From assembly GCA_017471465.1 (NCBI GenBank), contig JAFUTI010000016.1:1-64000 (forward strand): a stretch of DNA of 64,000 nucleotides, read 5' to 3'. Both the position numbers and the translations under genes were made by a program. Shown here in pieces: positions 3,619 to 36,400 of this stretch. Source of the stretch: Prevotella sp. Its GTDB lineage: Bacteria; Bacteroidota; Bacteroidia; Bacteroidales; Bacteroidaceae. The notes beneath the pieces were generated by a model. That model had not been told where the DNA came from. It saw nothing but the letters and a program-made list of their open reading frames with translations, and did no database searches. Every line of letters starts with the position of its first letter. Position 1 is the first letter of the stretch.

Positions 3619-6198
3619 TTACTCCTCATACCCTAAGAGGATAATGTTCTGATAATCGTTTATTTCAGAATGGTCCGTGGTTGTTTCACCAAGCTTGTAT
3701 TTTCCGTTGGTGAGTGTAAATCGGGTTGTTTTCCGGGTGAGGGATACTTTACCACAGACCCCATCGCCAACCCAAGGAGAGTGGGCTTTGTAGGGGCGGA
3801 TTTCGCAATCCTCAAGTCGGATGGTTATTTCTTCTATCCTGTCATATAACACTCTTACCCTTGAAATCGTGCCATTTATCAAGTCATCCATGAAGTCATA
3901 TTCTTCATTTTTCTTCTGCGACATTTCCAGGCTCATATCATAGCTGTCGTAAGTTTCTTCGAAGGTTCCTGTATTGGCATCTTTATGGGCATGGATACTC
4001 ACAGCGGGATAGCTTCCCGACACAGAACAAGGAAATTTCTCGGCCCTTTCATAGGCAGTAAGTACAAAGCGATTGTATTGGCCATCGGCTTCCTGAACGA
4101 GTGTTTTGAAGTTTCTTGACTCGGTTTCTGACTCTTCACCTGTTTCCTTGTCTTTAAACTTGCCTGTGACGTACAATGTTCCGCTAAGGTTGTAGAGACC
4201 GTGCAATTTCTCTGTTGTGACAATACAGTTGCTGTCCTCGAACTGTATCTGCCAATGCGAGGGTAGTGCACTGTAGTCAATTCTCGCCCCCAGGTCCTGG
4301 CAGTTAGTATCAATCATAAACGATTTGATGCCACCACCGCTACCGAAGCGAAGTGTGTCGCGCTTACCAATGTTAATATAAGGGCCTGGAACTTCAAAAT
4401 TCTTTCCTGAACCATATATTTCTGTTCCTCCCAGCGTGAAGATGGGGCGCAACACAAACTTACCGGGTCTGACAGATAATGTTCCTGTAGCACTGGAAGC
4501 TTCTTTCCATTCTTTGCTGAACTGCCAATAAGCTGGCATCTTTTTCCCCTCACTGTCGCGCAAAGTATTGGTGTAGTCAACGAGTTCGTCATTCTCGAAC
4601 ACGCCGAATCCCACATTTACTGGCCAGATGATGTTTCGTGAGGGGGTAACAGTAGCGGTTACCTTTTTATAGTTCAGAGCTTTCCCTTCTGCCGTTGCTT
4701 CCACTTCGCAGTCCGGGAATAGAAACAGGTCTACGTCGCCGAAGAAGTTGTAGCCGCCATCAGCGAGCGTCCATTCGCGCTTCTCGGTGAACAGGCTGCT
4801 CACCGTGGCCTTGACTTCATAGTCGGCAGTCAAGGGCGAGAAAGACAGCTTTGAGTCCTTTAGCAGGTTGTAGGCCGACATCTGGTCCTGCATCACGTTG
4901 GAGAGCGAGAAGTTCAGGGCACCGGAGATTTTGGGGCCGAGGTAGGTGGTGAACGTCACTTCGCTGCCCACGATCTTCGACAGCAGCTTCGAAAGTCCGA
5001 AGGAGAAGCCTGTCTTTGCACCACATTGCTCGAAGCCGTTGAACTCAATACTGTAGTTCCACTTGTTGTTCTCTGCCTCCGCCACGGGGTCTGGCTCCTG
5101 CTCGCCCGGTGGTGTGCCGAATCCGCAGTTGAAGTGTGGGTGCTTCCAGTCGCCGTCAACGTACAGTTTTCCCCACGCCTTGCCCTTATACTTGGGAGTC
5201 TGGAGATTGATTTTGGCGTGATATTCGCCGCGCAGGAAGCCATCGAAGCCAAACTCGATGATAAATATAGGAGCTGCGGCAGGCAACGGCATGCCACCGA
5301 AGGCATCGAGACCGAAGGGGAAGATGTCCTTTATCTTGCCATCAAGCGTAAAGCCTAGGCCTACGTCGTTGTTCATCGTGATGAGGATGCTCATCTGATC
5401 CTTGCCCCACAAGGGGAAGTTCCACAAAGCCTTCACGTCAGTAACCACACTCACGTCGGCATCGACACTGATGTTGACGTCGCCTCCCGGACTGGTATAG
5501 ACGGGGAAGTGACCGCTCATTGAGAAGTTGAAGAAGTTGAACGCATATTCCCCACTGCTGTTCCTACGGCTCTTTGTGGGGAACTCGCCCTTCGTCAGCT
5601 GCGGCATGCCGGCCACACGCCGGCGCACCATGTTACCGGCGTTGTCTTGGCCATACTGCTCCACGGTGACAAACTGCTCGAATATGTCGTGAACACTCTC
5701 CAAAGCGTCGCAAACGACTGTGATGCTCCCGCCCGATGTCGAGACAGACTTCACCCTGCCACCGAATAGAGAATTGTATTCGAAATCAGCGAGCACGTCG
5801 CCCTCGTGGGGAATCAGACTTGCGGGCATCGACGGTGAGAAGGTCAGCATCAGCGCTTCCTCGTCCCTGTTAGTGAGATAGTCTGTCATCCCTTCTTTGC
5901 GCATATCGCGCAGCCGTGGGTTGTAGCGTATCTCCGGCTGCACGAAGCCTATGCTGTCAATGGCGGTGAGCATGATGCGGTAGGTGCTGTCGGCGGTGAC
6001 AATTTCCTGCGAGACGTAGTCGTCGTGCTCTACGCCGAGCGTGTCGAGCTTCGAGTAGCTAATCTTCTCGACCTGGTCGTAGAAGAATCCGTCGAAGTGG
6101 CCGTCGTTCTGGTAGATGTAGAAGGCTGCGTTCTCTTCCTGAGCTTGTGCTGTTGCTATGGCAAACAGCGCAATGATTGTAAGGAATAGTTTCTTCAT
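3619..6198 (-). CDS. Large secreted protein, partner of the small CTD protein before it
   Basis: An 859-residue protein with signal peptide MKKLFLTIIALFAIATAQA. Residues about 25-95 form a module that also occurs in the C10 and M64 proteins of this window: YIYQNDGHFDGFFYDQVEKI, then a beta-rich stretch ending TAIDSIGFVQPEI. The rest is predicted beta-rich and soluble, with many aromatic residues. I do not recognise an enzyme in it, and no type IX-type C-terminal domain or lysine-rich tail is present. The start codon overlaps the stop of the 160-residue gene before it (ATGA, 6195-6198), so the two are probably translationally coupled. It is the last gene of a four-gene operon. A cell-surface or extracellular role is inference from the signal peptide. 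Confidence 0.8.
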   Translation of the reverse strand: MKKLFLTIIALFAIATAQAQEENAAFYIYQNDGHFDGFFYDQVEKISYSKLDTLGVEHDDYVSQEIVTADSTYRIMLTAIDSIGFVQPEIRYNPRLRDMRKEGMTDYLTNRDEEALMLTFSPSMPASLIPHEGDVLADFEYNSLFGGRVKSVSTSGGSITVVCDALESVHDIFEQFVTVEQYGQDNAGNMVRRRVAGMPQLTKGEFPTKSRRNSSGEYAFNFFNFSMSGHFPVYTSPGGDVNISVDADVSVVTDVKALWNFPLWGKDQMSILITMNNDVGLGFTLDGKIKDIFPFGLDAFGGMPLPAAAPIFIIEFGFDGFLRGEYHAKINLQTPKYKGKAWGKLYVDGDWKHPHFNCGFGTPPGEQEPDPVAEAENNKWNYSIEFNGFEQCGAKTGFSFGLSKLLSKIVGSEVTFTTYLGPKISGALNFSLSNVMQDQMSAYNLLKDSKLSFSPLTADYEVKATVSSLFTEKREWTLADGGYNFFGDVDLFLFPDCEVEATAEGKALNYKKVTATVTPSRNIIWPVNVGFGVFENDELVDYTNTLRDSEGKKMPAYWQFSKEWKEASSATGTLSVRPGKFVLRPIFTLGGTEIYGSGKNFEVPGPYINIGKRDTLRFGSGGGIKSFMIDTNCQDLGARIDYSALPSHWQIQFEDSNCIVTTEKLHGLYNLSGTLYVTGKFKDKETGEESETESRNFKTLVQEADGQYNRFVLTAYERAEKFPCSVSGSYPAVSIHAHKDANTGTFEETYDSYDMSLEMSQKKNEEYDFMDDLINGTISRVRVLYDRIEEITIRLEDCEIRPYKAHSPWVGDGVCGKVSLTRKTTRFTLTNGKYKLGETTTDHSEINDYQNIILLGYEE

Positions 6199-6677
6199 TT
6201 CCGCAAGAGTTTAATGGTTTCCTTTCCCGCTTTCACGATATACACGCCGCTGGGGCGCTGGCTGACAGAGATGGTGAGCGGCTGACCGTCGCAGGCGGTT
6301 TGCTGCTCAATGAGCATGCCGTTGGCGCTGTAGAGGCTGACGGTAGCACCCTCGGGCAGGTTGCGGTAGGTCACGGCGTCGCCCTCGCGGCTCACCTCAA
6401 TGCTACGCTCGCTAGGTAGCAAGTCGATGCTGGTGGCCACGTTCTCATAGGTGTAGCGCAGCACGTTCTCCAACTGGTAAGTAACGGTGGTCTTGCTCGT
6501 GCGGATGACGAGCAGCCCGTCTTCAAACGTGGTCTCTGGAAGGTCGCTCAGCTGGAAGTGCACCTTCTCGCCCGACTTCTGCCACACCACGAGACGCGGC
6601 GTCGTTTGAGCCATTGCTCCCACTGTCATCAGCCAGAGGAGCAGCATCGTAAATAGATTTCTTTTTCTCATTGACAT
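6195..6677 (-). CDS. Small secreted protein with type IX-like C-terminal domain (copy 2)
   Basis: A 160-residue protein with a signal peptide ending at MTVGAMAQ. Residues about 25-90 hold a beta-rich module (RLVVWQKSGEKVHFQLSDLP). Residues about 95-160 resemble the type IX secretion sorting domain (type A): TVSLYSANGMLIEQQ, then PSGVYIVKAGKETIKLLRK. There is no room for a catalytic domain, so the sorting-like domain is essentially the whole mature C-terminal half. Its stop overlaps the start of the 859-residue protein by ATGA, and it starts 7 bases after the C10 peptidase stop. The arrangement repeats at 11.3-11.8 kb and 25.2-25.7 kb. A role as a trans-acting anchor or chaperone for the downstream partner is a hypothesis. 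Confidence 0.8.
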   Translation of the reverse strand: MSMRKRNLFTMLLLWLMTVGAMAQTTPRLVVWQKSGEKVHFQLSDLPETTFEDGLLVIRTSKTTVTYQLENVLRYTYENVATSIDLLPSERSIEVSREGDAVTYRNLPEGATVSLYSANGMLIEQQTACDGQPLTISVSQRPSGVYIVKAGKETIKLLRK

Positions 6678-6684
6678 TATTCTT

Positions 6685-9600
6685 TTACATTGAAATGTTT
6701 ACAGTATATTGCAGCTTCACCGTTCCCTCGGCCTCGGTCATGCCGGTCGAGATGTCGTCGACGGTGATCTTCTGTTCCACACCTGCATCAAGTGCAGACC
6801 AATCGTAGTTTTCCACTAATGCCACACCTTCGGCTTCGAGGTTGTAGATGCCCGCACCGGTAAAGGCAACGGTGTAGCTGTTGTCAGCATTGCGAACCAC
6901 GGTGAACTCACAGTCAATCTTGTGCTTGATGGTACCGTTCAACAGGTTGAAGATACCTGTAACGTCGCCACCGCTGGCAAGCGACCTGTTGAATCCGTGG
7001 ACAAACTCCTGTTTGGTCTTCTCGACAAACTTGTGCGTAGTGTTGATGGTGAACTGGCCGGAGCCTTCGTTACCCGTCATGGTGCCCACGATGTCGTCGC
7101 CCAGCTTCACATGGCCGGCATCGTCAACGGTGATGAAGTCGTGCTGCTTGAAGAACTTCTCAATCTCGTACTGGAAGCGTGCCTGCTTGTTGAACGAGCC
7201 GTTGAGGTAGCAGGGAATGGCCGTGCTGCTCGCATGCGGATGGGCTACTAGTTCGTCTAATTCGTAGTAATAGAGGTTGCCGTCTATGGTCATGGGTATC
7301 TGGACAACGGCGGGGTCGTAAGCCATGGTAAGATCCTTCAGCTTCGGAGCCTCCACCTCTACGCCGCTGTTTGCCAAATCGATCTTGATTCTCCGCTTGC
7401 CCGTGTTCTCGGATATGGAGAATTTCCATGACTTCTTCTCAATACCGTTCTTGTCGCAGAGCACCACTTCAAACGGCATCTCGTTCTGCAGCAAGGAATA
7501 GACGGTGAAATAGCCCAGTGTGGCGGTACCGTCGTCGCCGATGGTACATTCCCACTCCTTCTCGTTGCTGACGGTCGACGGAATGTTGGCAAAGCGCATG
7601 GTCCATCCGGCAAACTTCGACTTGCCGTCCTTTGGGGCCGAGGAGTCGCTGATAGCGAGCCGATACTGCGTGTTGACGATGGCGGCTACCTTCTTGAGTG
7701 CGTTACTGTAGCGGTTTTGGGCCTCTATCTCCACATTTCGCTTGATGGCTGCGATGACGCTCACCATCTCGCCGTTCATCAGCTCTGCATAGTATTCGTT
7801 GCTGATCTGCTCCTTGTCGGCCTCGCTTATCCACATATAGGAAGAAAGTCCCTGCGTCTTGGCATACTCATAGCTCCAGGTGCGCACTTCCTCGTTGTCG
7901 TCCCAGAAACGGTCGCAGTAGAGGCGGACGGTCTGTTCAATCACCCCTTCGAGCTTGTCCTTCGTCAGTTTGCCCTCCGCAATGATGGGATAGAAGTGGT
8001 TGTACCAGTCTTTCGTCGTGCGGAAGTAGCCATGAGGGTTCTTGTCGTCAATCTTGTATTTCGAATCTCCGATCAGGGCGTTGAATCCATGTAGGCTGTA
8101 GTAGTATTGGTAGGCCTCGCGGAACATGTCGCGCTTTTTCTCCATGACGGAAGTATAGAGCTTGTCGAGGGCAATGCCGATGAAGGCCACGCAGGCCGAC
8201 GAGGCTGCCATGATGGGCGTGCCGATGGCTGCCGCCATCTGTCCGCCGGTGTAGTTGAGTACGGTGCTCAGCGTGCCCTTTACCACGCCGACGTCGTCGC
8301 CCTTGATGTCGGCTCCTACCACGTCGAGAATACTCATGGCCGTGCCTAAGTAGCCCATAGCCGTGACGGCATGGTCGAGTGCCTCGGGCTTGAAGTCGAG
8401 CAGCGGCTCGGTGATGCTGGTCACGGCGTTGTACACGCCGTCGAGGCCCACGCTCTGCCAGAAGCCCATCTCGTCCTTGAACTCTCGCACCATCTGCGCA
8501 TCAGGATCGTCGCTCGAGACGATGTGCAGCAACTTCTTGATGGCATCGTCGATGTCGTAGAGGGTGGGCGTCATTCCATAGTAATTCAGCATGGCCAGCG
8601 ATGTAAAGTCGTTCTTGGTGTAGAAGACGCTGTAGAGCGACAAGTGGTTGGTGGTGATGGTGACGGTGCCGCTTGCCTCGTCATGTTTGAAGCGAACCGG
8701 CTCCCACTGCCCTTCGGCCTCGTTGTAGTAGGCGGCACACACCTTCTCCTGACCCTCCGGCGACACGGGAATGATGATGTCGGCTGCTCCGCTCAGCTCG
8801 TGCTCGCCGTTCGACAGGCTGAGGTCTACGGCAAAGCCGCGCGTAACGCCCTCCATGACCTGAGGCGTGAGCACGGCGTTGCGCACGCTCAGCTGCACGT
8901 CGCCGTCGATACAGGTGGCATCGAACTTCACCGTGCACTTCTGGGCTTCGACGGTGAGCGTAGAGTCGTTCAGGTCGAACACCTCGGCATTGTCGAGGAT
9001 GAAGCCGGGCCTCCACGTGACGCTGTCAATGGCAGCCAGCGACACGGTGAGGTCGGCGTTGCCGTTGCGCTTGATGACTACGTGCTGGCCGTCGTCGGCT
9101 ATCTGCATATTGCCGACCTCGCTGATGGGGATGTTCACGCGCTGTTGGTTTTCGTCGGTAGCGTTGACCACCATGTAGTACTGGCGGTCCTGCGGTGGAG
9201 CGGGTTCGTAATTGTTAATCTCCCTTGGCCACCCAAGACGCTTCCATACCGGTGCATTTAGATAGAGTTCTTCGCTTCCTGGCGGAACATACAGCCACGG
9301 TCGGTTTGTAAAAGTCTTTTCATGAAACGTAGCCTCGGTAATCTCTGGAGGCACCGTCGCATAGCACGTCAGCGTGCGCAGATACTCGTAGTCCTTATAA
9401 GCTCCTTCCATCTCAACCACACTGCTTGGAATCTTGATGCTCGACCCCGGTCGCACGCTTCTCGGCTCCATCCTGACCACTGTCTCAGGCAACACGTCGG
9501 GAAACAACATGGTTTCGTTAGTCGTCATGATGAGGCTTGTGCTGTTATTGTTCAGCAACCAATTCTGAAGCTTCGGTGAACAGTAGAAGTTGGGATTGTC

Positions 9601-11355
9601 TGCCACCATGAAGTACCATAGATCAGGATTGGTGTCGAAGGCGTCGGGTGAAATCTTCTTTAGCTTCGAAGGCACGACGAACGTGTGGTTCGGGAACGGA
9701 CAGAAATAGAAAGCCTGTGACCCTACCTCCTCCAGCATCGTGAAGTCGGGAACCTCTGTGAAGTGGTTCATAGCAAATGCCCGGTAGCCAATCTTGGTGA
9801 TACAGCTGAGCCAGTCGCCACCATTGATTTTGCAGTTAAAGAAAGCCTGGTCGTCTACCTCGAAGGCCGGACTCTTGCTGGTCACCTTCGAAAGGCCGGA
9901 CAGATAGAATGCTCCCTTGCCAATGCGCTTGAGCGATGCGCCGATGTGCAGGCTCTTGACGGTCGTCGAGTTGAACGAGTTGTCGGGCACCTCCTCCAAC
10001 CCGTCGCCGAGCACCAGTTCGTCGATATTGGTATAGATAAAGGAGTTCCGTTCAATGCTCTTGATGTTGTCGCCCAGAGTCAGCTTGGTGAAATGGCCCT
10101 TGCCCGTGAAAGCACTTCTGCCGATGCGCGTCACCTTGTATTCACGGCCTTCGTCGTCCTTCACCACCGACGGGATGGTAAGTTCGCCGTTCTCGCTGCC
10201 ATAGTTGCCCAGCTTATAGCTCAGCACATCGGCCGTTCCGTCCTGTAGCAGGCCATACTCTATGTTGTCAATCTCCTTACGGATGGCATCGTAGGGACGC
10301 ACGTTGGTGAAAATGGCGGCCTGACACTGATAACCACTCACCAATGCACTCTTGTAGAAACCGTCGCAAGCACCTCCCCAACCGTAGTTGAAGTGGAAGT
10401 AGTCATTGCTGGTATAGCCATCGCAGACCAGGGCATGACCAGCTCCTTTCATTTCAAAGTCGGGATAGCCACTGTAAAGAACGGGGCGACCGTTGGTCAG
10501 TTCGGTAATCATCGCATTTTTCAATTCTGCTGCCGTGACGCCATGCTGCACAGCGATGTCCGGCTGATACCCGAAATAGTCTATCAGCGGCTGTGGGTCA
10601 AACCCAGTAGAACTGCCTTCTGGAGCATACCTTGTGCCGAAAGCCTTGCCGATGTCAGCCATCAATGTTGCTACCGCATTAGCTTGCACATCGTTATAAC
10701 GACTTTTATCATAATCATCGAGCATGTTGTCCCAGTCGTAGGTGTGGCCGGAGAAATCACCAATGGCTTTCTCTGGCCATTTCCAGTAGTTCATCACCTG
10801 CGCAATGGCTGTCGGTACGCATCCCGAAGGGCAGCCTGTCGGACAATTAGCGTTATAAGGCCCCCACTGGTTCCATGTCGTGGTGAGCAGCGGCCCCACT
10901 TGGATATATCCTATATAGCTCGGCAATGCGGGGGCCAGACGTGGCGATGCCAGAACAGGACTCTGTCGCAGGGAATCGATGGTTGTGGAATAACTTGCCA
11001 ACAAGTCCTTCATCTGAATGGGACAGCTGTCGTAGCTGAACGAACCGTGGTCGCAGTAGCCCAGCACCTCGTCGTCGGTGCCGGTTTCGCCCGAGATGAC
11101 GACGAAACCCTGATCACCGCCCAGGTTGACGACGTAGACATTGTCCTTGCCTGCCTGCACTTGCGACTTCATGCAGTGGGCCAGCATGGGGGTGGCGGGC
11201 TGTGCCGGAGCCTGTCGCTTAGACAGTTTCCTGGTGGAAGGGTGCGATGCGAACTGGCTGGCAATCTGCAGGGCCTGTTCGCGGCTGATGTCATCGGCCA
11301 ACGCATAGACAGCTGAAAGCAAGAGGGCGAATATGAGGGAAATAATCTTTTTCAT
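6685..11355 (-). CDS. Giant C10 family (streptopain-like) cysteine peptidase with LRR region
   Basis: A 1556-residue secreted protein. Signal peptide 1-20; propeptide-like region about 21-135 (VYVVNLGGDQGFVVISGE); catalytic domain about 145-350. The nucleophile is Cys179 in GCPSGCVPTAIAQVMNYW. The general base is His307 in GAGHALVCDGY, followed by FHFNYGWGG, which holds the Asn and Trp typical of C10 enzymes. Residues about 380-720 are BspA-type leucine-rich repeats (IGRSAFTGKGHFTKLTLGD). Near 735-800 the shared module appears again, ending AAIDSVTWRP. About 700 further residues are unrecognised and include a glycine/alanine-rich segment near 1000-1070. All catalytic residues are present. C10 enzymes are known as SpeB and interpain-type virulence proteases; 1556 residues is far longer than usual. 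Its start overlaps the stop of the small CTD protein before it. Confidence 0.85.
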   Translation of the reverse strand: MKKIISLIFALLLSAVYALADDISREQALQIASQFASHPSTRKLSKRQAPAQPATPMLAHCMKSQVQAGKDNVYVVNLGGDQGFVVISGETGTDDEVLGYCDHGSFSYDSCPIQMKDLLASYSTTIDSLRQSPVLASPRLAPALPSYIGYIQVGPLLTTTWNQWGPYNANCPTGCPSGCVPTAIAQVMNYWKWPEKAIGDFSGHTYDWDNMLDDYDKSRYNDVQANAVATLMADIGKAFGTRYAPEGSSTGFDPQPLIDYFGYQPDIAVQHGVTAAELKNAMITELTNGRPVLYSGYPDFEMKGAGHALVCDGYTSNDYFHFNYGWGGACDGFYKSALVSGYQCQAAIFTNVRPYDAIRKEIDNIEYGLLQDGTADVLSYKLGNYGSENGELTIPSVVKDDEGREYKVTRIGRSAFTGKGHFTKLTLGDNIKSIERNSFIYTNIDELVLGDGLEEVPDNSFNSTTVKSLHIGASLKRIGKGAFYLSGLSKVTSKSPAFEVDDQAFFNCKINGGDWLSCITKIGYRAFAMNHFTEVPDFTMLEEVGSQAFYFCPFPNHTFVVPSKLKKISPDAFDTNPDLWYFMVADNPNFYCSPKLQNWLLNNNSTSLIMTTNETMLFPDVLPETVVRMEPRSVRPGSSIKIPSSVVEMEGAYKDYEYLRTLTCYATVPPEITEATFHEKTFTNRPWLYVPPGSEELYLNAPVWKRLGWPREINNYEPAPPQDRQYYMVVNATDENQQRVNIPISEVGNMQIADDGQHVVIKRNGNADLTVSLAAIDSVTWRPGFILDNAEVFDLNDSTLTVEAQKCTVKFDATCIDGDVQLSVRNAVLTPQVMEGVTRGFAVDLSLSNGEHELSGAADIIIPVSPEGQEKVCAAYYNEAEGQWEPVRFKHDEASGTVTITTNHLSLYSVFYTKNDFTSLAMLNYYGMTPTLYDIDDAIKKLLHIVSSDDPDAQMVREFKDEMGFWQSVGLDGVYNAVTSITEPLLDFKPEALDHAVTAMGYLGTAMSILDVVGADIKGDDVGVVKGTLSTVLNYTGGQMAAAIGTPIMAASSACVAFIGIALDKLYTSVMEKKRDMFREAYQYYYSLHGFNALIGDSKYKIDDKNPHGYFRTTKDWYNHFYPIIAEGKLTKDKLEGVIEQTVRLYCDRFWDDNEEVRTWSYEYAKTQGLSSYMWISEADKEQISNEYYAELMNGEMVSVIAAIKRNVEIEAQNRYSNALKKVAAIVNTQYRLAISDSSAPKDGKSKFAGWTMRFANIPSTVSNEKEWECTIGDDGTATLGYFTVYSLLQNEMPFEVVLCDKNGIEKKSWKFSISENTGKRRIKIDLANSGVEVEAPKLKDLTMAYDPAVVQIPMTIDGNLYYYELDELVAHPHASSTAIPCYLNGSFNKQARFQYEIEKFFKQHDFITVDDAGHVKLGDDIVGTMTGNEGSGQFTINTTHKFVEKTKQEFVHGFNRSLASGGDVTGIFNLLNGTIKHKIDCEFTVVRNADNSYTVAFTGAGIYNLEAEGVALVENYDWSALDAGVEQKITVDDISTGMTEAEGTVKLQYTVNISM

Positions 11356-11831
11356 GGCTTGTGGAACTTAAATGAGAACTGCTTGTTTTTTACGATGTAG
11401 AGGCCCTTGCCCAGATTCTGCAGAGGAATCGTAGCACAGCCATTACCGTCAAGACGGTATTGGCCCGCCATAGTCCCTTTGATGGTGTACAGCGACACCA
11501 CGGAGCCGGGCTCGCCACCACTGATGGTGAGTGTGCCGTCGCGGAAGCTGAACTGCGTCTGTGGTACCGTCACTTCCTCTACGCCGTCGATGATGTCGTC
11601 CACGTCGAAGCCAATCTTCTGCAGCAAGTAGATAGGATACTGCACCGAGGTCTTGCTGGTGGTCATCACCAAATCACTGCCGGAATAGGTCACTACGGGT
11701 TTTTCCGTAAAGGAGAACTTTGCCACGGTGCCGTCTTTCTGATAGACGACTATGGCGTTCTGCGCCCTGACGCCCAATGTCCCTGCCACAAGCAGCAGGG
11801 CGCTTAACACTAGTCTTACGGTTGTCTTCAT
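11352..11831 (-). CDS. Small secreted protein with type IX-like C-terminal domain (copy 1)
   Basis: The start at 11831 gives a 159-residue protein with signal peptide MKTTVRLVLSALLLVAGTLG. The longer frame up to 11915 would begin upstream of the predicted promoter and is rejected. After the signal comes the beta-rich module VVYQKDGTVAKFSFTEKPVV, ending with LLQKIGF, then a sorting-domain-like C-terminus: GSVVSLYTIKGTMAGQY and GKGLYIVKNKQFSFKF. It overlaps the C10 peptidase start by four bases (ATGA) and leads the four-gene operon that runs to 3619. The domain order is the same as in the proteins at 6.2 and 25.2 kb. The role is unknown; supplying a sorting or anchoring domain to the C10 protein, which lacks one, is a reasonable hypothesis. 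Confidence 0.8.
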   Translation of the reverse strand: MKTTVRLVLSALLLVAGTLGVRAQNAIVVYQKDGTVAKFSFTEKPVVTYSGSDLVMTTSKTSVQYPIYLLQKIGFDVDDIIDGVEEVTVPQTQFSFRDGTLTISGGEPGSVVSLYTIKGTMAGQYRLDGNGCATIPLQNLGKGLYIVKNKQFSFKFHKP

Positions 11832-11858: not shown

Positions 11859-11866
11859 CAAAGATA
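11859..11866 (-). promoter_or_regulatory. -7 promoter element of the small CTD/C10 operon
   Basis: TATCTTTG on the minus strand, about 28 bases before the ATG at 11831. A TTTTG at 11892-11896 lies somewhat too far away (25 bp) to be an ideal -33 element. Confidence 0.6.
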
Positions 11867-11962: not shown

Positions 11963-13576
11963 TTATTTTTCGGCCGTCCAATCCTTCGGCGTCTTGCCGG
12001 TGACGGTCTTGAAAGCGCGGAAGAATGATGACTCTGAAGAGAAGCCCGATGCCGTCCAGATCTCGGAGATTTTCTTGCCGGGATGTCGGCGCAGCAGTTG
12101 TTGGGCGTATTCCACGCGATAGGTGTTGACAAACTGCGTGAACGAGCAGCCGCGGGTGTTCTTGATGCAGTTGGAGACGTAAGTGCGGTTGGAACCAAGC
12201 GCGTCGGCCACGTCCTGCACTTTCAGTTCGCTGCTGAGGTATGGCTGCTGTTCGTCCATGTAACGGCAGATGCGCTCCATGAGCTCGTTGTCGCCAGTGT
12301 CGGTATGGTGGAGTAGCGACGGAGCCGGGCGGCGTCGCCGCAAAATGACTGTCATGATGATGGCTGCAAGAAGGAGTAGTGACGCAATGGCTATCCACAG
12401 CCACAAAGGCAGCCGGTTCTCTTGTAGCTCCATCGTCTTCTCAATGCCGACATGCAGCAGGAACACGGTGGATGCTGCTTCGTAGTTGTTGTTCTGTTGC
12501 AGGATGCCGCCCACCACCATCAGGTCGCCGCTGTCGGTCAGCACGGGATACCAGCGACCTGCGCTGTCCACGGGCTCACTATATAATAAGGTGACAGGTG
12601 CCGGAGTCGACTGATAGTCGATGGCGGCCACATAGAAGCGATGATCACCAGAGTCGTCGGGGTAGTTCTCGCCGTAGCCCACGATGTAGGCCCTGCCTCG
12701 GCTCCTGTCGACGACGACGGGTGCATACCAGCAGATGCGGCTCCACTGGCTCCGCATGGGAATGGGACTGGTGGTTGGCAGCAGCGAGAAGTCCTCGCCC
12801 GTCACCTTGGCAATGGCCATGAGACTGTCGCCACGCAGCACCTGTATCAGGCTGGTGTAGTCGCCTCTGGCCTCGTCGCCGATGAAGCACGAGCCGTGAC
12901 TGCCCGGGAGCGGACAGACGGGGCGCCACGTCCGGAACAGAGGAACGGTGAACGGCTCTCCCCTCAGGCGGTCGACGATGATGGTGTCGAAGTCGTCGGC
13001 ATGGATGTCGCGGCTGCCGAAGATGATGGCGTTGTCACTGGCCGTACGGATGATGTGGGGCACGCTGCGGTGCTGGGTCACGGGCTTCACGAACTTGCAC
13101 TGGCGGCTGCCGTCGTACAGCTCGATGCAGTCGTCCTGATACCAGTTGCCGCTGATGACGATGCGCCCGCTGTCAATGAGCAGCGTATTGGCGAAACAAC
13201 GCTTCCGTTCCAGGCAGCCATAGCCCTTGAAGCTGTGTGCTGCCGGGTCGTACAGCTCGAGCGTAAATGTCTGACCGATTCCCAGAGCCTGCTCGTGGCC
13301 TCCAAACAGCAGCACCTGCCCCGACGGCATGACCGCCGCTCCTCCGTGGTCGTGGCTGTAGGCTGTCTCGATGAGGTGCCACTGGCCGTCGCGATAGTAT
13401 TCTGCCGTCTGCGTGGGCACGAAGCCAGTGGTGTGACCGCCAGCCGCCACCACCTCGCCTCCGACACAGAATACCGAGTGACCGAGGCGTGGAACGTTCA
13501 AGTCGGGCAGTCGCTCCACCTGTAGCGGGGCGGTCGGACAGACGGTCAGCAGCAGTGAGACGAGTAGTGCTGTCAT
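11963..13576 (-). CDS. Kelch-like sensor / transmembrane / AraC-type DNA-binding regulator
   Basis: A 537-residue protein starting at 13576 (MTALLVSLLLTVCPTAPLQ). The open frame extends 65 codons upstream, but that part is the reverse frame of the GH105 gene. After a signal/anchor, residues about 25-380 hold Kelch-type beta-propeller motifs (RLGHSVFCVGGEVVAAGGHT and VMPSGQVLLFGGHEQ). A membrane segment follows near 390-412 (LWLWIAIASLLLLAAIIMTV), then an arginine-rich stop-transfer sequence. Residues about 430-535 form an AraC helix-turn-helix domain (VQDVADALGSNRTYVSNCIK, then KISEIWTASGFSSESSFFRA). There is no kinase or receiver domain. It is the last gene of the GH51/GH51/GH105 operon (14 bp after GH105), so it probably senses a periplasmic sugar and controls that operon. 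Hybrid two-component regulators are the usual architecture for this job; this one is simpler. Confidence 0.85.
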   Translation of the reverse strand: MTALLVSLLLTVCPTAPLQVERLPDLNVPRLGHSVFCVGGEVVAAGGHTTGFVPTQTAEYYRDGQWHLIETAYSHDHGGAAVMPSGQVLLFGGHEQALGIGQTFTLELYDPAAHSFKGYGCLERKRCFANTLLIDSGRIVISGNWYQDDCIELYDGSRQCKFVKPVTQHRSVPHIIRTASDNAIIFGSRDIHADDFDTIIVDRLRGEPFTVPLFRTWRPVCPLPGSHGSCFIGDEARGDYTSLIQVLRGDSLMAIAKVTGEDFSLLPTTSPIPMRSQWSRICWYAPVVVDRSRGRAYIVGYGENYPDDSGDHRFYVAAIDYQSTPAPVTLLYSEPVDSAGRWYPVLTDSGDLMVVGGILQQNNNYEAASTVFLLHVGIEKTMELQENRLPLWLWIAIASLLLLAAIIMTVILRRRRPAPSLLHHTDTGDNELMERICRYMDEQQPYLSSELKVQDVADALGSNRTYVSNCIKNTRGCSFTQFVNTYRVEYAQQLLRRHPGKKISEIWTASGFSSESSFFRAFKTVTGKTPKDWTAEK

Positions 13577-13590
13577 GGGGGCGGTAGTCT

Positions 13591-14811
13591 CTATTTGCCC
13601 TGACTGAGGTAGCGGCTGTATTCGCAGGCGGCGAGCAGGAAGGCACCGACGCCGAAGTTGGCCTCGCTGTTCTGGTCGACCCTCTGGCCGGGGATGGCGC
13701 GCTCGCCGATGGGCTGCACGTAGCCCACCTTTCCGGAAGGCTGCAGGGCGGTCTCCGTCAGGTAGCGCCAAGCCTTAGCAATGACGGGGGCAAACTCATG
13801 CTTGGAGAGGTAGCCGTTGTTGACACCCCACAGCAGACCGTAGGTGAAGAAGGCCGTGCCCGACGTCTCAGGACCGGGAGCATGCTGCGGGTCGGCCATG
13901 GAGCGCGTCCAGTAGCCCTGTGGCTGCTGCAGCGAGGCCACGGCACGGGCCAGACGGGTGTACTTCTCGACGAAGAACGGCTGGCGCACATACTCCTCGG
14001 GCATGTCCTGCAGCACCTTGGCCAGTCCGGCCAGCACCCAGCCGTCGCCGCGTGCCCAGTAGTCTTTCTTGCCGTTGGCCGACTTGTGCTTGGGCCACAC
14101 GTACTTACCGTCGCGGAAGTAGAGGCCCGTCTCGGGGTCGAGCATGATGCTGTCGCTGTAGAGCAGGTTCTCGTAGAGCTTGTCGAGATATTTCTGCTCG
14201 CCCGTCAGGCGGTACATCTTTGTCATCACGGGCATCACCATGTAGAGGGCGTCGGCCCACCACCAGTAGTCGGTCTGTGGCGAGTCGGCCTCGTAGCCCA
14301 TCACCTCGCGGGCACGGGCAATCATTTGTGATTGCTCTTTGTTTATAGTTGAAAGCTTATCGTTTATAGTTGATGTGCTTGCATGCCCTTGTTTACCAGC
14401 AGTGTAATCATCTATAAACTTTAAACCATAAACTTTAAACATAAAAAGATCGATGTAGGTCTGGAAGCATATCTGCCAGTCGCCGAAGAGCACGTAGTCC
14501 TGGCCCTCGCCATACTGGCGGTACTTCCACTTGGCGGGGTCGGTCTCGGTGGCTCCCTGCCAGTGGTTGTGCTCCGCCCAGCGGATGCTGTAGTCGAGCA
14601 TCTGCTGGTCTTGGAGCAACTTATAGACTTCAATATTGCCGGTGTGATAGGCGGCGTTGTCCCAGAAGGCCCGTACTTCGGCCTTGTTATTCGTCTGCCA
14701 GTAGGTGTTGACCTGCCGGATGACATCCTTCACCTGGCCGGACGTCCATGTGCGGGCCTGTATGATGGCGGCCACGGAGAGACACGCCGCAAAAAGAACT
14801 TTTCTCATCAT
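13591..14811 (-). CDS. GH105/GH88-type unsaturated uronyl hydrolase, secreted
   Basis: A 406-residue protein with signal peptide MMRKVLFAACLSVAAIIQA. The family is unsaturated rhamnogalacturonyl hydrolases (YteR/YesR type), which remove 4,5-unsaturated uronic acid from lyase-generated oligosaccharides. Signatures are TDYWWWADALYMVMPVMTKM, YWARGDGWVLAGLAKVLQDM and GPETSGTAFFTYGLLWGV. Residues about 120-155 form a low-complexity insert (STINDKLSTINK) encoded by AT-rich repeats at 14341-14446 and absent from typical family members. It stays in frame and probably forms a surface loop. Its neighbours are two arabinofuranosidases upstream (6 bp gap) and the Kelch-AraC regulator downstream, which fits degradation of arabinose-substituted rhamnogalacturonan. 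Confidence 0.85.
   Translation of the reverse strand: MMRKVLFAACLSVAAIIQARTWTSGQVKDVIRQVNTYWQTNNKAEVRAFWDNAAYHTGNIEVYKLLQDQQMLDYSIRWAEHNHWQGATETDPAKWKYRQYGEGQDYVLFGDWQICFQTYIDLFMFKVYGLKFIDDYTAGKQGHASTSTINDKLSTINKEQSQMIARAREVMGYEADSPQTDYWWWADALYMVMPVMTKMYRLTGEQKYLDKLYENLLYSDSIMLDPETGLYFRDGKYVWPKHKSANGKKDYWARGDGWVLAGLAKVLQDMPEEYVRQPFFVEKYTRLARAVASLQQPQGYWTRSMADPQHAPGPETSGTAFFTYGLLWGVNNGYLSKHEFAPVIAKAWRYLTETALQPSGKVGYVQPIGERAIPGQRVDQNSEANFGVGAFLLAACEYSRYLSQGK
14341..14446. repeat. AT-rich repeat insert inside the GH105 gene
   Basis: GTTTATAG occurs at 14341-14348 and 14362-14369, and its reverse complement at 14412-14419, followed by two copies of ATAAACTTTAAAC. The segment is much more AT-rich than the surrounding coding sequence and codes for the non-conserved loop STINDKLSTINK. 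It resembles an intergenic-type repeat that landed in frame. Confidence 0.65.
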
Positions 14812-25204: not shown

Positions 25205-25702
25205 ATGAAACAGAACAACAAACAATCCAAATGGCTATGGCTGATCGTCGGGCTCATGCTGCTGCCTTTGGGCGTTAAGGCGCAAGACGCCAAGAGTTAC
25301 GAACTGGTCATAGAGAAAACCAACGGTCAAACACTTCGCTTGCCGATATCCTCTGACGGACAAATCTCTGTCGGTTATGAAGATGTCATTGTGGGACTGG
25401 GTAGCGAAACTCTGTTCCTGACCATGGATGACATCGCCAAGATGTATGCCGAAAAGACAACGACCGGCATCAGCAGACCGACGGACAACACCGTTTCCAT
25501 AGAGTTAGGTCACAATCAGACCGTCGTCCTGTCAGGCTTGAAGGACAATACGGAAGTGATATTTGCAGACCTCTCCGGAAAAGTGCTACTCAGAGAGAAA
25601 GTCACCAGCCGCACAACCACGATTTCAACAACGTCGCTGCCTGCAGGGACTTATATCGTAAAGACATCCTTTGGTGAAACCCTTAAATTCACGAAGCAAT
25701 GA
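25205..25702 (+). CDS. Small secreted protein with type IX-like C-terminal domain (copy 3)
   Basis: A 165-residue protein with a signal peptide (WLWLIVGLMLLPLGVKAQ). The mature N-terminal module (YELVIEKTNGQTLRLPISSD, then SETLFLTMDDIAKMY) matches the beta-rich modules of the small proteins at 6.2 and 11.4 kb. The C-terminal 70 residues follow the sorting-domain pattern: NTEVIFADLSGKVLLREKV, then PAGTYIVKTSFGETLKFTK. The stop overlaps the ATG of the M64 fusion gene by four bases. It is the third and independently located copy of the small-protein/large-protein pair in this window, here on the opposite strand. Its function is unknown; a partner role for the large protein is inferred from the conserved coupling. 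Confidence 0.8.
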   Translation: MKQNNKQSKWLWLIVGLMLLPLGVKAQDAKSYELVIEKTNGQTLRLPISSDGQISVGYEDVIVGLGSETLFLTMDDIAKMYAEKTTTGISRPTDNTVSIELGHNQTVVLSGLKDNTEVIFADLSGKVLLREKVTSRTTTISTTSLPAGTYIVKTSFGETLKFTKQ

Positions 25703-27969
25703 AACGGACACTCATTATTCTGCAGTTCTTGCTGGCGGCAACGGCCACTATTTATGCCCAGCATTTAGAGTTTGTAAAGAACAGTGGTGAACATCAGCAT
25801 GTTAGCATTGACAGCTGGGGCTCCATACTGTCTTTTGATATTGATGAGCGTGGCGAGTTGACTTGGGTATACAACGGGCAACCTTTTAAGGACGTTGAGA
25901 GCGTACTCTTCCGTAACAAAGCCTACGACGACACCAAGGAGCGCGAGGCTCTCATAGAGCTATACAAAGCAACGGACGGCGACCACTGGGCAGACAACAC
26001 CAACTGGTGTAGCGACAAGCCCCTGAGCGAGTGGTATGGCGTTGGCTGTGACTACGCTACGGGCAGGGTGACCAGTATCATGCTCAGCACTAACAAACTG
26101 AAGGGAACGCTACCGGAAAGCCTTGAGAATCTGTCTTGGTTGGAGTACCTCATGATAAGAGACAATCCAAACCTCACAGGCAATATTCCTCAGGCTTTAG
26201 GGAAGCTGATGAATCTGTGGTTTATCAGCCTGGACCATAACAGTCTGACAGGCCCGGTACCAGGAAACCTCTTCATGCTCCCACGCTTAGGGCAAATCCA
26301 TCTCCACGATAACAAACTCAGCGGGACGATACCAGAGACACTCACCTTCATGATGGATAAGGCGAAAGAGCCAAATGACATGTGGATTACCCATAACAGG
26401 TTCACGGGGAAAGTGCCCGATGCCATCCTGCACCACAAGAATTTTCGCAACCTCTGGCCTGCCATTCTGATACAGGACGGAGAAATTGGCGACTTTGATA
26501 TTAAGGACGTCGAGATTCCCGGCCCTGACTTTGAACTCACCGACATGAACGGCGTAGTACACAAGAGCAGCGAGATATACGCCAGGAACAAGCTGACCCT
26601 TCTTTATGAGTGGGCATCCTGGTGTCCATATTCGAAGGAGCTGAATATCAAGCTGATACCCGCCTACAGCCAGTTTAAAGAAAAAGGCTTCGAGGTGCTT
26701 GGCCTGACCAAATTATGTGGTATGGCCACGCCCTGTAGCACAGAGGAAGAATGGATGGACTACCTGCAGACAAATCATGTTGAGTGGCCCAATGTCGTAG
26801 AGGACTTTGACAATCTCTTGAAAGTCATACATTATTTAAGCGGTGTTCCTTTACTGCTGCTGGTTGACCAGAACGGGAAAATCATTTTTTCAAACATCCT
26901 GAAGGAGGATCCTGACACTTATGCGCTTGTGCCAAAGCTGGAGGAATACTTCGGTGCCTTGGAGGGTGGCGAATACTATACTTCTACCGACTACTCCCGC
27001 GACGGTGAGGTGTATACCATGCAGACGGCTACCGAGGGGCACGGCATCAACCTGGTGTTTATGGGCGACGGCTTTGTGGATACCGATATGGCCGATGGCG
27101 GCAAGTATGAGAAGACGATGCAGAAGGCCATGGAGCAGTTCTTCGCCGTGGAGCCTCTCAAGTCGTTGCGCAGCCGTTTCAATGTCTATGGTGTGAAGGC
27201 GGTGTCGCCCAATGCAGAGTTCTCTCAATACGCAGTACGTGCCATTGACCGTGACGACAGCAAGGCCTTCCGTTATGCCAGCAAGATTTCTGGCCTCAGA
27301 ACCGACGAGGGGTTGCACGTGAACGTTATCTACAACACCGATGGCTATGACATCGACCGCAGCTATTGTTCTTCCTATTTCGGCGATGGCTCCTACGTCT
27401 GCTATGCGATGGACGGTGGTGCCAGCATGTTGCTCAACCATGAATCGGGTGGCCACGGCATTGGCCGTCTGTTTGACGAATATGTGGAACCCGGCTATGA
27501 GGGTCTTTCGCTGCCAGAAAGCGAGAAGCAGAGAATGATTTCTTATTGGGCTGACTACGGCTCTGGTGCCAATGTCGACTGGCGTAGTACGCCTACGGAA
27601 GTGAAATGGAGCAAGTTCGTGGCCGACCCGCGATATGCCGAAGAGGGTCTTGGTGCGTATGAAGGCAGCTTCCTCTATGGCAGCGGTGCCTACCGTCCTA
27701 CAGAGAACAGTATGATGCGCTATAACGACACACCGTTCAATGCCCCAAGCCGTGAGGCCATTTACAAGTTTGTCATGCGCGAGTCTGAAGGTTCACAGTG
27801 GGTTTACGACTACGAGACTTTTGTGCAGTTCGATGCTGCCGGACGCGAGGAGTTTGTCAATGCGAAGAAGAGTGGGGCACGTACAAACAAGCGGATGTCT
27901 CCCCTGCGGTTAGAACCGACGACCAAAGCTCCCATTCTGCACGAGGGAACATGGCGTGATACGCAGTAA
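25699..27969 (+). CDS. Secreted LRR / thioredoxin-like / M64 metallopeptidase fusion
   Basis: A 756-residue protein with signal peptide MKRTLIILQFLLAATATIYA. The order is: shared short module (about 20-65, LEFVKNSGEHQHVSI); leucine-rich repeats of the plant-like type (about 75-230, LWFISLDHNSLTGPVPGNLF); a TlpA/AhpC-like thioredoxin fold (about 270-405) with YEWASWCPYSKELNI, where the usual CxxC is CxxS (Cys310); and an M64 (IgA peptidase-like) domain about 430-745. The zinc motif is HESGGHGIGRLFDE, with H581, E582, H585 and the downstream DE of the family. No sorting tail follows the peptidase. It overlaps the small CTD protein gene by ATGA. The peptidase should be active by motif; the redox domain probably cannot do a two-cysteine exchange. 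Confidence 0.85.
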   Translation: MKRTLIILQFLLAATATIYAQHLEFVKNSGEHQHVSIDSWGSILSFDIDERGELTWVYNGQPFKDVESVLFRNKAYDDTKEREALIELYKATDGDHWADNTNWCSDKPLSEWYGVGCDYATGRVTSIMLSTNKLKGTLPESLENLSWLEYLMIRDNPNLTGNIPQALGKLMNLWFISLDHNSLTGPVPGNLFMLPRLGQIHLHDNKLSGTIPETLTFMMDKAKEPNDMWITHNRFTGKVPDAILHHKNFRNLWPAILIQDGEIGDFDIKDVEIPGPDFELTDMNGVVHKSSEIYARNKLTLLYEWASWCPYSKELNIKLIPAYSQFKEKGFEVLGLTKLCGMATPCSTEEEWMDYLQTNHVEWPNVVEDFDNLLKVIHYLSGVPLLLLVDQNGKIIFSNILKEDPDTYALVPKLEEYFGALEGGEYYTSTDYSRDGEVYTMQTATEGHGINLVFMGDGFVDTDMADGGKYEKTMQKAMEQFFAVEPLKSLRSRFNVYGVKAVSPNAEFSQYAVRAIDRDDSKAFRYASKISGLRTDEGLHVNVIYNTDGYDIDRSYCSSYFGDGSYVCYAMDGGASMLLNHESGGHGIGRLFDEYVEPGYEGLSLPESEKQRMISYWADYGSGANVDWRSTPTEVKWSKFVADPRYAEEGLGAYEGSFLYGSGAYRPTENSMMRYNDTPFNAPSREAIYKFVMRESEGSQWVYDYETFVQFDAAGREEFVNAKKSGARTNKRMSPLRLEPTTKAPILHEGTWRDTQ

Positions 27970-32555: not shown

Positions 32556-33059
32556 ATGAGAAAAATCTTTATAACCTTTATGATGGCTTTACTGGCTGTC
32601 GGCGTTTTTGCACAGAAGACCAGTCCGTCGCTGATAGTCTACGATGTAAGCGGGAAGGTCACCAACGTCAAACAATCGAAAGAGACACCGGTTGAGAAGA
32701 AGCAATACTTCTCGTTGACCGATATGATAAAAATACCCGAGAACGGATTTATCAAACTTCTTGACAAAGAAAAGCAGAAGATGTACACGCTCAGGAACAA
32801 ATGCCAAGGAAAGATCTCGGCCCTGATTGAAAGTCAGAAAGACGCAGGGAAAAACCTGACCAAACAATACTTTGCATACGTCTTGAGGAGCTTGACCCGT
32901 TCGGACACTGACGTCATTTACAACACAGGACATACGACAGGTACCTACCGTAACGACGCTGACTCATTGCTTTGCGACATCGACTCGTTACAGACGGTCG
33001 TCGACTCTTTGCAAAATGTTATTAGCACGCTGGTTAATGACAGCACCAGGAAACCATGA
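32556..33059 (+). CDS. Small secreted protein between CHASE2 and CHAT genes
   Basis: A 167-residue protein with signal peptide MRKIFITFMMALLAVGVFAQ. Residues about 22-95 (SLIVYDVSGKVTNVKQSK, then LTDMIKIPENGFIKLLDKE) resemble the FecR-type beta domain, in which a sugar- or signal-binding beta-helix senses periplasmic input. The match is weak and by pattern only. The C-terminal 60 residues end in a short heptad-like coiled-coil stretch (DIDSLQTVVDSLQNVISTLV). Its stop overlaps the start of the TPR-CHAT gene by four bases. It is probably an extracytoplasmic adaptor between the CHASE2 sensor and the CHAT protein; this is inference from position. Confidence 0.65.
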   Translation: MRKIFITFMMALLAVGVFAQKTSPSLIVYDVSGKVTNVKQSKETPVEKKQYFSLTDMIKIPENGFIKLLDKEKQKMYTLRNKCQGKISALIESQKDAGKNLTKQYFAYVLRSLTRSDTDVIYNTGHTTGTYRNDADSLLCDIDSLQTVVDSLQNVISTLVNDSTRKP

Positions 33060-36000: not shown

Positions 36001-36400
36001 TCTGCTACTGTCAGGAGCTAATTACATCCTTAAAGGCGGGAAACTGCCCAACAACCTTGAAGACGGTGTGATGACGGCAAACGAGATAGCGCAAATAGAT
36101 CTTAGCCAGACGGACCTTGTCGTGCTCTCTGCCTGTCAGACCGGCGTTGGCGACATTCGCGAAGACGGTGTCTTCGGCATTCAGCGTGGTTTTAAGAAAG
36201 CAGGTGTAAGGTCGCTGTTAATGAGCCTGTGGAGTGTCAGCGACCAAGCCACAGATCTAATGATGACAAAATTCTACGACTTTTTGCTGGCTGGCTTGCC
36301 TAAACCACGCGCTTTCCAAGCAGCTCAAAAGAGTCTGCGCGAGAGTGGATACGACTCCCCGTTTTACTGGGCTTCCTTTATTTTACTCGACGGTTTCTAA
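33056..36400 (+). CDS. Exported TPR-CHAT (caspase-like) protein
   Basis: A 1114-residue protein with signal peptide MITRLAVLFLLIAVTLTGHA, so the whole enzyme is exported. Residues about 25-560 consist of tetratricopeptide repeats (LGSFYSLKGDYAKAIEIGQT and LNNMGTFYSHLQNYKDAAQV). Residues about 740-1110 form a CHAT domain. The predicted catalytic dyad is His948 in IIHIATHGFYFSE and Cys1027 in VVLSACQTGVGD, followed by GFKKAGVRSLLMSLWSVSDQ. CHAT proteins are caspase-like peptidases; the best-known ones act in the cytoplasm with TPR partners. Export to the periplasm or cell surface makes this one unusual in context. Substrate unknown. It is coupled to the small secreted protein and behind CHASE2. 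Confidence 0.88.
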   Translation: MITRLAVLFLLIAVTLTGHAQDKELSRLADAAAKAEKKGLLTEADSLYGQYILLFRERGLAKDFQYSDILIRQARRAVQKGYINEAIDIQQEVIEVRKTAQDCTFLQWASAMSDLGSFYSLKGDYAKAIEIGQTALEMLKKKIGEKHHYYNIVLANLASYYSARGWQGDYEKAIALGEKALKGLRRGSREYAGALNSMVVYYSQVGDKANAIKIAQKARIEAKKWLKEDGVSYATTLNNHAIQLAKVGNYEEAVRYASQAKEGFEIAGVTQSLGYTKVLNNMGTFYSHLQNYKDAAQVLETAIPIIEQVATKQHPDYLRCMSDLSSVYKASGNLSRADQLANESNAVSQTLTGDDNLKYAKSLSKQAGIFASNGNYIRAIELEQKAFDFYKKHADSVSMAQSLGHMATFLARDGHQDAAFETARRSLTIFEQQGKRTTYYAQALNNTSILYFNGGKNQEATTYGSLARQMYEHLGDTATAIYARILANNALFCYVNDSLEQAINIAEQALALQTNILGSDHPDHVPLLYNLSVYYSKAGRKTDAEDHYKKAIRLQSELIRTDFLHLTSQEREKFWNQKSYVFKYAPMLAYLDPDNGDMATTAYNALLFQKGILLNSDIDFRKLLKQSNSQSLLNKYNELEILQQQLEGYYRLPAGERHIDLKAIKAEIYNLERILVNECKEYGRFTDNLSINAEQISRVLNDDEVAIEFANTYIQGRGNTYLAFMLKKGQPQPRLIRLFSDDELQEITYGKITFLDAIQTTFGIDSIYRDRRFGSLLWASLIKEMKGVRRIYFSPTGLFYHLGIEYLPCDSVHHINDLFDVYRISSTKLLANRGDKQSAVSSATVYGGLNYNMDLSQLQQQHEQFKASFNSEQLMAMTDTDMTRTLDSLSLRGSVGYLPGTLHEAENIGEQLMQKDIPTHMLLGNEGTEESFKALNGQKMSIIHIATHGFYFSEKELQKRRQRLIFLNEESEDMENPLNYSGLLLSGANYILKGGKLPNNLEDGVMTANEIAQIDLSQTDLVVLSACQTGVGDIREDGVFGIQRGFKKAGVRSLLMSLWSVSDQATDLMMTKFYDFLLAGLPKPRAFQAAQKSLRESGYDSPFYWASFILLDGF

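Follow-up and report, generated by a model that had tools for sequence, protein, structure and literature searches.

Cargo of the type IX secretion system (T9SS) is conventionally recognised by a C-terminal domain (CTD) that sits on the cargo itself. For instance, type A cargo carries a CTD of the TIGR04183/PF18962 kind in cis, and both short and long CTDs are described for Prevotella intermedia, of which the short form is cleaved at PT/GI and keeps the motifs B, D and E (PMC11969387). Type B substrates form a two-gene unit with a PorP/SprF gene, whose product is an outer-membrane shuttle that recognises the cis CTD of its neighbour; as described, the secreted protein depends on this neighbour (PMC12618676, PMC9143113), and the former source uses "orphan" for a Type B substrate that has no shuttle gene beside it. 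The window, by which we mean the whole stretch of 64,000 nucleotides (nt) analysed here (Prevotella sp., GenBank assembly GCA_017471465.1, contig JAFUTI010000016.1, positions 1 to 64,000), contains three gene pairs in which a small secreted protein with a CTD precedes a large secreted protein that has none. With a probability of roughly 0.6, judged from sequence comparison and predicted folds, such a pair encodes a bipartite T9SS cargo, in which the small protein would act in trans as the export and anchoring adaptor of the large one. To our knowledge, no bipartite T9SS cargo has been known before, and searches of open-access papers, which leave preprints and most subscription papers uncovered, turned up no report of a coupled small protein that provides a CTD in trans.

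Several described systems share some of these features. With type A cargo the small proteins have in common the signal peptide, the CTD, a TG-I-like cleavage site that is visible by eye in several of them, and the presence of T9SS genes in the genome; unlike type A cargo, the CTD lies on a separate tiny protein, whose mature form would be a module of about 50 residues (PMC11969387). In Type B pairs the neighbour recognises the CTD, whereas the neighbour would supply it here (PMC12618676, PMC9143113), and no PorP/SprF family is among the profile matches listed for the small or large proteins of the window pairs. PorA of Porphyromonas gingivalis (246 amino acids, aa) and Fjoh_0547 of Flavobacterium johnsoniae (112 aa) are likewise small, secreted and CTD-bearing; unlike the present proteins, PorA contains a FimH-like domain and takes part in signalling, and no coupled partner is mentioned in the accessible text of that source (PMC7712824). 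A comparison that is functional only can be drawn with the Tat hitchhiker mechanism (PMC4273604) and peroxisomal piggyback import (PMC9251779), in which a subunit without signal is carried by a signal-bearing partner. However, membranes and machines differ, and the present adaptors would form a family of their own, dedicated to carrying many unrelated partners. Cohesin-dockerin docking also uses a small interaction domain to attach diverse enzymes, and one small protein described below does have a dockerin, but nearly all adaptors seen here bear a CTD instead.

The features of the three window pairs are as follows.

11352..11831, minus strand: small protein A, 159 aa, with signal peptide, beta module, linker and long type A CTD (sequence, predicted CTD fold)
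11607..11756, minus strand: beta module of small protein A, residues 26-75, six predicted strands (AlphaFold2, AF2, model)
11358..11558, minus strand: CTD of small protein A, residues 92-158, seven predicted strands (profile, AF2, fold comparison)
11352..11355, minus strand: ATGA overlap of the small protein A stop and the C10 peptidase start (sequence)
6685..11355, minus strand: large partner A, 1556 aa, with signal peptide, Inhibitor_I69 prodomain, Peptidase_C10, BspA-type leucine-rich repeats (LRRs) and internal module, without CTD
9013..9189, minus strand: internal module of the C10 partner, residues 723-781 (hidden Markov model, HMM, of the small-protein module, sequence E 7.7e-4)
6195..6677, minus strand: small protein B, 160 aa, with signal peptide, module and CTD (TIGR04183, 28.1 bits)
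6195..6198, minus strand: ATGA overlap of the small protein B stop and the start of the 859-aa protein (sequence)
3619..6198, minus strand: large partner B, 859 aa, secreted-type, without CTD (HMM scans)
11859..11866, minus strand: TATCTTTG box, last base 28 nt ahead of the small protein A start codon (sequence)
25205..25702, plus strand: small protein C, 165 aa (TIGR04183, 29.0 bits)
25699-25702, plus strand: ATGA overlap of small protein C and its 756-aa partner (sequence)
25699..27969, plus strand: large partner C, 756 aa, with LRRs, thioredoxin-like domain and peptidase M64, without CTD (HMM scans)

An earlier note on this DNA had described the two pairs on the minus strand as small protein A, C10 peptidase, small protein B and 859-aa protein, in this order and with an ATGA overlap within each pair; gene positions and both junctions were confirmed. 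Since both overlaps are exact, only 7 nt separate the first pair from the second, and the TATCTTTG box, which we take to be a Bacteroidota-type promoter element (consensus TAnnTTTG), lies ahead of them, 3619-11831 looks like a single four-gene operon. The third pair, at 25205-27969 on the plus strand, is of the same type and was absent from the note.

In each small protein, the signal peptide is followed by a beta module some 50 residues long, which a linker connects to the CTD. The note had read their C-terminus as sorting-domain-like and proposed a comparison with TIGR04183, which bears this out: small proteins B and C score above the model cut-off of 23 (28.1 and 29.0 bits), small protein A stays below it with 16.2, and 31 of 42 aligned small proteins match at E<=0.01, a threshold looser than the model cut-off. 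That the CTD of small protein A is a false positive was considered because of this score and rejected, as predicted fold and relatives both back a CTD. In the AF2 model (23 sequences, mean pLDDT, i.e. predicted local distance difference test, 80), a six-strand module is followed by a low-confidence linker and by a compact seven-strand beta-sandwich, as expected for a CTD; this predicted domain resembles solved T9SS CTDs, among other immunoglobulin-like folds and with modest scores. A CTD model was also built from 86 small proteins, which include the 80 surveyed below, so that its matches to 79 of these 80 arise by construction.

The large proteins, in contrast, have no sorting domain, as the note had stated: two HMMs found no CTD in the C10, 859-aa and 756-aa partners, and CTD models matched none of 77 partners from the survey. 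A looser search with a regular expression for CTD motifs was unspecific (chance-like matches in 26/77 partners) and was replaced by the HMM test. A hidden CTD at the end of the C10 partner was also rejected, since the AF2 model of the last 332 residues shows long hairpins; a Foldseek search with this part gave no T9SS CTD in the best 50 of 517 matches, none of which reached E<=0.001, although an absent match counts for little. All three partners start with a type I signal peptide by inspection. By domain content, the product of 6685-11355 is a C10 peptidase (PF01640, E 1.7e-49; prodomain PF13734, E 5e-17; profile matches), and neither Pfam nor NCBIfam matches the 859-aa protein up to E 1.

The arrangement recurs throughout the genus. 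A model made from six small proteins matches 57 of 60 genus genomes at E<=1e-5, the own genome included. From the matches listed, 80 small genes in 41 of the 60 genomes were picked by hand and blind to their neighbours (the first 80 by rank with a match position from <=30 to >=155 and a frame of <=255 aa; the sample excludes weaker rows of this type as well as partial matches and long frames; the small genes of L060 and L061, in our numbering of loci, are near-identical). A gene on the same strand follows in 79 of the 80 cases, and its product is of the secreted type in 78, with signal peptides called by heuristic and by eye. These counts include L063, where the small frame extends beyond its usual end; 119 nt ahead of that stop, a partner frame with a signal-peptide-like start begins. 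As to spacing, 41 junctions are exact ATGA, three are TAATG, 30 partners start 0-60 nt downstream, five are arranged otherwise and one small gene has none. Automatic gene calling, which paired 68 of the 80 small genes, gave ATGA in 35/68 small pairs vs 15/299 control pairs; the downstream product had a signal peptide in 64/68 vs 146/299. The control pairs were drawn from the same loci and are not a genome-wide baseline. The concern of the note that the small genes might mostly occur without a large secreted partner does not apply.

The partners belong to very different families. Among 69 that were scanned, Cthe_2159 (11), DUF4876 (5), CBM77 (4), pectate lyase (4), GH5 (3) and FISUMP (3) were found. 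Single coupled partners, collected in alignment A7, match Thiol_cytolysin, FGE-sulfatase and alkyl sulfatase, which points to varied cargo. Twenty long frames were hand-picked and viewed apart from the survey: a secreted CTD-less protein follows closely in L131, L132, L134 and L136 and at 21 nt in L142. In L131 and L132 the module and CTD are fused behind regions that look propeller-like by eye. The gene after L141 encodes a C10 protein that itself bears a CTD, the gene overlapped by L145 has no signal peptide, and the remaining long frames, some of them cut at contig ends, showed no close secreted CTD-less follower. Moreover, a scan of GTDB genomes for relatives of small protein A gave 27 loci, mostly from Prevotella, Prevotellaceae and Bacteroidaceae metagenome-assembled genomes and including Segatella baroniae DSM 16972, three of which end before the small gene does. 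An exact ATGA and a C10-like start of the next frame were seen in 23 of the 24 testable relatives, whose small proteins are 50-67% identical to small protein A; the exception is L235 (41%). The C10-like frames of 18 of these 23 relatives are closed and encode 1542-1659 aa, and three of the 23 loci repeat survey loci.

The draft genome itself has six cassettes led by a small gene, three of them beyond the window, each ATGA-coupled to a secreted-type frame. In L014 an 881-aa protein follows, the start of which resembles that of the 859-aa protein by eye. The 128-aa small protein of L015 has a short CTD, by eye of the P. intermedia type, and is followed by proteins of 328 and 725 aa, both with Cthe_2159 domains. 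In L013 the small gene lies ahead of a C10 frame that stops after 96 aa; this second small/C10 pair (L013:411-1186, own-genome contig C2) has intact relatives.

If a small protein lends its CTD, homologues of its partner without such a neighbour should carry a CTD of their own. For C10 peptidases, 60 loci were sampled from 150 matches listed (38 by taking one in four, 13 long frames and 9 extra), two of which are open-ended. A small module-CTD gene was not seen directly ahead of any of them, although L175 shows just 189 nt of upstream sequence; in L156, L159, L181 and L182 the upstream protein (313-875 aa) does match the small-protein HMM, so that the class without small neighbour is not free of CTD neighbours, which weighs against a bipartite cargo. 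By eye, 48 of the 58 closed uncoupled C10 proteins end in a CTD, 8 in dockerin-like repeats (L157, L163, L174, L176, L184, L185, L193 and L196) and 2 in neither. By HMM, a CTD was found in 41/58 uncoupled vs 0/19 small-coupled C10 proteins (p 1.7e-8), with one of the HMMs trained on GH5 tails only; this value overstates independence if the coupled proteins are one clade, as they may be. A similar pattern is seen among 30 loci with GH5 homologues of a coupled partner, a sample weakened as support by the fact that the query was itself a coupled protein: 13 have a CTD, 9 are of the lipoprotein type (4 assigned by script and 5 by eye) and 4 (L238 to L241) have neither CTD nor lipoprotein signal and a small gene upstream. 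Three of these four are survey pairs, and the fourth is L268. No class could be given to L243 (wrong frame), L254 (open), L256 (also L269; neither tail nor small protein) and L261 (degenerate tail).

A further link between small and large proteins is the module. An HMM of the small-protein module matches near the start of 47/76 partners vs 4/366 control proteins (E<=0.01; p 2e-38), the controls being other secreted proteins of the same loci; two of the four matching controls are an unlisted small gene and the frame after it (L155). This suggests that small and large proteins meet module to module. A reverse comparison, in which a model of the partners was run against the small proteins, was not used because the model contained signal peptides and matched 118/366 controls at E<=0.01. 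Cognate module pairing was dropped as a proposal, as the signal is weak: the likeness of small proteins to their own partners was reached in 240 of 5000 shuffles, with a median rank of 30 of 72. If docking occurs, a common docking surface is therefore likelier than recognition specific for each pair. One small protein differs in its tail:

L268:856-1266: small protein with module and dockerin, 43 nt ahead of a GH26-GH5 enzyme

Here the dockerin (PF00404, E 7e-12) stands in place of the CTD. Though a single case, such a protein has the make-up expected of an adaptor, and C10 peptidases show the same two tail alternatives in cis, CTD or dockerin, the latter by eye. Other partial module matches in the genus scan may be of the module-dockerin type.

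As to the machinery, the own genome encodes SprA and, close together on contig C12, a C25 protease of the PorU type (PF01364) and a PorV-family protein; PorU is assigned by family and neighbourhood. Across 121 family genomes, matches to the small-protein model and SprA are both present in 89 and both absent in 28, with 4 discordant genomes and splits inside two genera. Absence is not absolute in this count, as the model was scored on up to 31 candidates per genome, and it also matches longer CTD proteins. Matches without SprA were seen in G268 and G317, in our numbering of genomes. The nearly complete draft genome G268 has nine such matches and no SprA match, which may reflect either a gap in the assembly or a true loss of the T9SS. 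The near-complete congener G010, which lacks SprA, has neither small genes nor TIGR04183 matches. Thus, the CTDs of the small proteins go with the T9SS, but co-occurrence with SprA alone does not establish action in trans.

Because the small proteins match CTD models and precede secreted genes, and their partners have no CTD, action in trans is the best fit. The earlier note had proposed just this, together with a fixed stoichiometry from coupled translation; the first part stands as the best fit, backed by the complementarity of cis and trans CTDs and by the shared module, and is supported in part, since the CTD might act on the partner or just carry the small protein to the surface alongside it. 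A fixed stoichiometry is possible; 41 of the 80 junctions are ATGA overlaps, L089 included, and most of the others have a short gap. Binding, co-export and anchoring may then be pictured as follows. Both proteins have, from their sequences, a Sec-type signal peptide of their own. The small protein would be a dedicated adaptor, for which sequence and predicted fold indicate a type A CTD attached to a short beta module, and the large one a CTD-less effector enzyme or binding protein, which in most sampled pairs carries a related module near its start. The two would meet in the periplasm via their modules, in amounts that coupled translation would help to balance, and the CTD would take the folded pair through SprA to PorV. 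From what is known of the T9SS, PorU would cut off the CTD in the linker and join the small module to the surface polysaccharide, so that the large protein would be held non-covalently at the cell surface. In this way, one adaptor design could serve many unrelated effectors.

Several observations weigh against a bipartite cargo. The module was not found at E<=0.01 in 29/76 partners, and within the window it is clear only in the C10 protein, where it is internal and follows the LRRs; the match at the N-terminus of the 859-aa protein is weak (E 0.41), and none is listed for the 756-aa partner. The poor likeness of small proteins to their own partners belongs here as well. About half of the pairs do not overlap, the small gene of L069 has no partner on its strand, that of L089 is followed at an exact ATGA by a cysteine synthase of the cytosolic type, and the module-CTD protein of L133 has no partner at all. 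Conversely, one partner, the 328-aa protein of L015, itself bears a short CTD, and neither CTD, dockerin nor small protein was found with the C10 protein of L168 or the GH5-like enzyme of L269. SprA occurs without a match to the small model in G316, G347 and, at 1e-5, G038, and its correlation with the small proteins partly reflects the general need of CTD proteins for the T9SS. Finally, PorA and Fjoh_0547 are described as reaching the surface or medium without the translocon (PMC7712824), so that a small CTD protein need not use SprA.

Among the alternatives, mere co-expression deserves most attention, although we regard it as rather unlikely. The tiny small protein would then reach the surface as ordinary T9SS cargo, and the large protein would independently be periplasmic or exported; both would share an operon because they serve one task. 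A secreted downstream gene is indeed common (146/299 control pairs), and the missing overlap in about half of the pairs and the weak cognate-module signal would be expected. However, such a reading does not sit well with pairing in 78/80 cases with very diverse partners, with an exact ATGA kept in 23/24 named relatives, with cis/trans complementarity in two enzyme families or with a module shared by 47/76 partners vs 4/366 controls. Less probable still is that the small protein acts as a surface receptor, whose anchored module captures a large protein that exits by another route. Just the module of about 50 residues would stay on the surface after CTD removal, which would suit a receptor, and the dockerin variant of L268 also hints at a docking role; on the other hand, we know of no other outer-membrane route for these proteins, and none was searched for, two separate exports need no coupled translation, and homologues of the partners bear the CTD in cis.

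C10 genes adjoining inhibitor genes are known in Bacteroides, and two of the three partners in the window resemble peptidases, so that a small protein acting as specific inhibitor of the C10 or M64 peptidase, or as chaperone of its partner, comes to mind. It is improbable: the role of peptidase inhibitor was rejected because partners such as Cthe_2159 proteins, pectate lyases and GH5 enzymes are too diverse, the C10 protein has its own Inhibitor_I69 prodomain, and a periplasmic chaperone would need no CTD. Least likely of all is a signal protein that senses the T9SS. PorA offers a precedent, as this CTD protein is reported to act upstream of PorXY-SigP signalling, but its N-domain is described as FimH-like (PMC7712824), and several copies per genome are present here, each ahead of a different effector gene.

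A bipartite cargo, as preferred here, might extend to a general rule. At about even odds, T9SS bacteria of the Prevotella lineage use a two-gene code, in which adaptors made of a module and a long CTD, short CTD or dockerin export CTD-less, module-bearing effectors as complexes via SprA and tether them to the surface. If true, the code would extend to peptidases, to enzymes acting on pectin and mannan and to unknown proteins, and the prediction of T9SS cargo from CTDs only would miss a whole class, including enzymes like GH26|GH5_4 of Segatella copri. In this enzyme, a type I signal peptide precedes an N-terminal domain of unknown function (DUF); its authors found no cysteine lipid anchor and predicted surface exposure (PMC12704710). 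It shares the GH26-GH5 architecture with L268 and the DUF after the signal peptide with the small-coupled enzymes of L067, L074 and L268; the comparison is drawn from the published description, and the accessible text mentions no small upstream CTD protein (PMC12704710). A separate adaptor would bear on how such an enzyme could be surface-held without a lipid anchor. If the CTD can lie on another protein, many surface enzymes of abundant gut and rumen Prevotella may be misfiled as periplasmic or unlocalised. Moreover, trans action of the CTD would mean that complexes pass through the translocon and would provide a compact tag for enzyme display.

Some further observations concern the surroundings of the cassettes. 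A single-protein query of viral contigs gave no relative. In L016 (L016:3417-7195, own-genome contig C42), a 507-aa MBG-domain protein with CTD is ATGA-coupled to a 752-aa protein without CTD match; ATGA coupling thus also occurs with longer CTD proteins. The window contains a further ATGA-coupled pair on the plus strand (32556-33059 / 33056-36400), of which the first member is a 167-aa secreted-type protein without CTD match and the second (33056-36400) a TPR-CHAT protein of 1114 aa, the start of which resembles a signal peptide. Directly upstream of the four-gene cassette, 11963-13771 on the minus strand encodes what by eye is a propeller-like sensor that ends in an AraC-type helix-turn-helix, and the propeller-like regions fused to module and CTD in L131 and L132 are similar.

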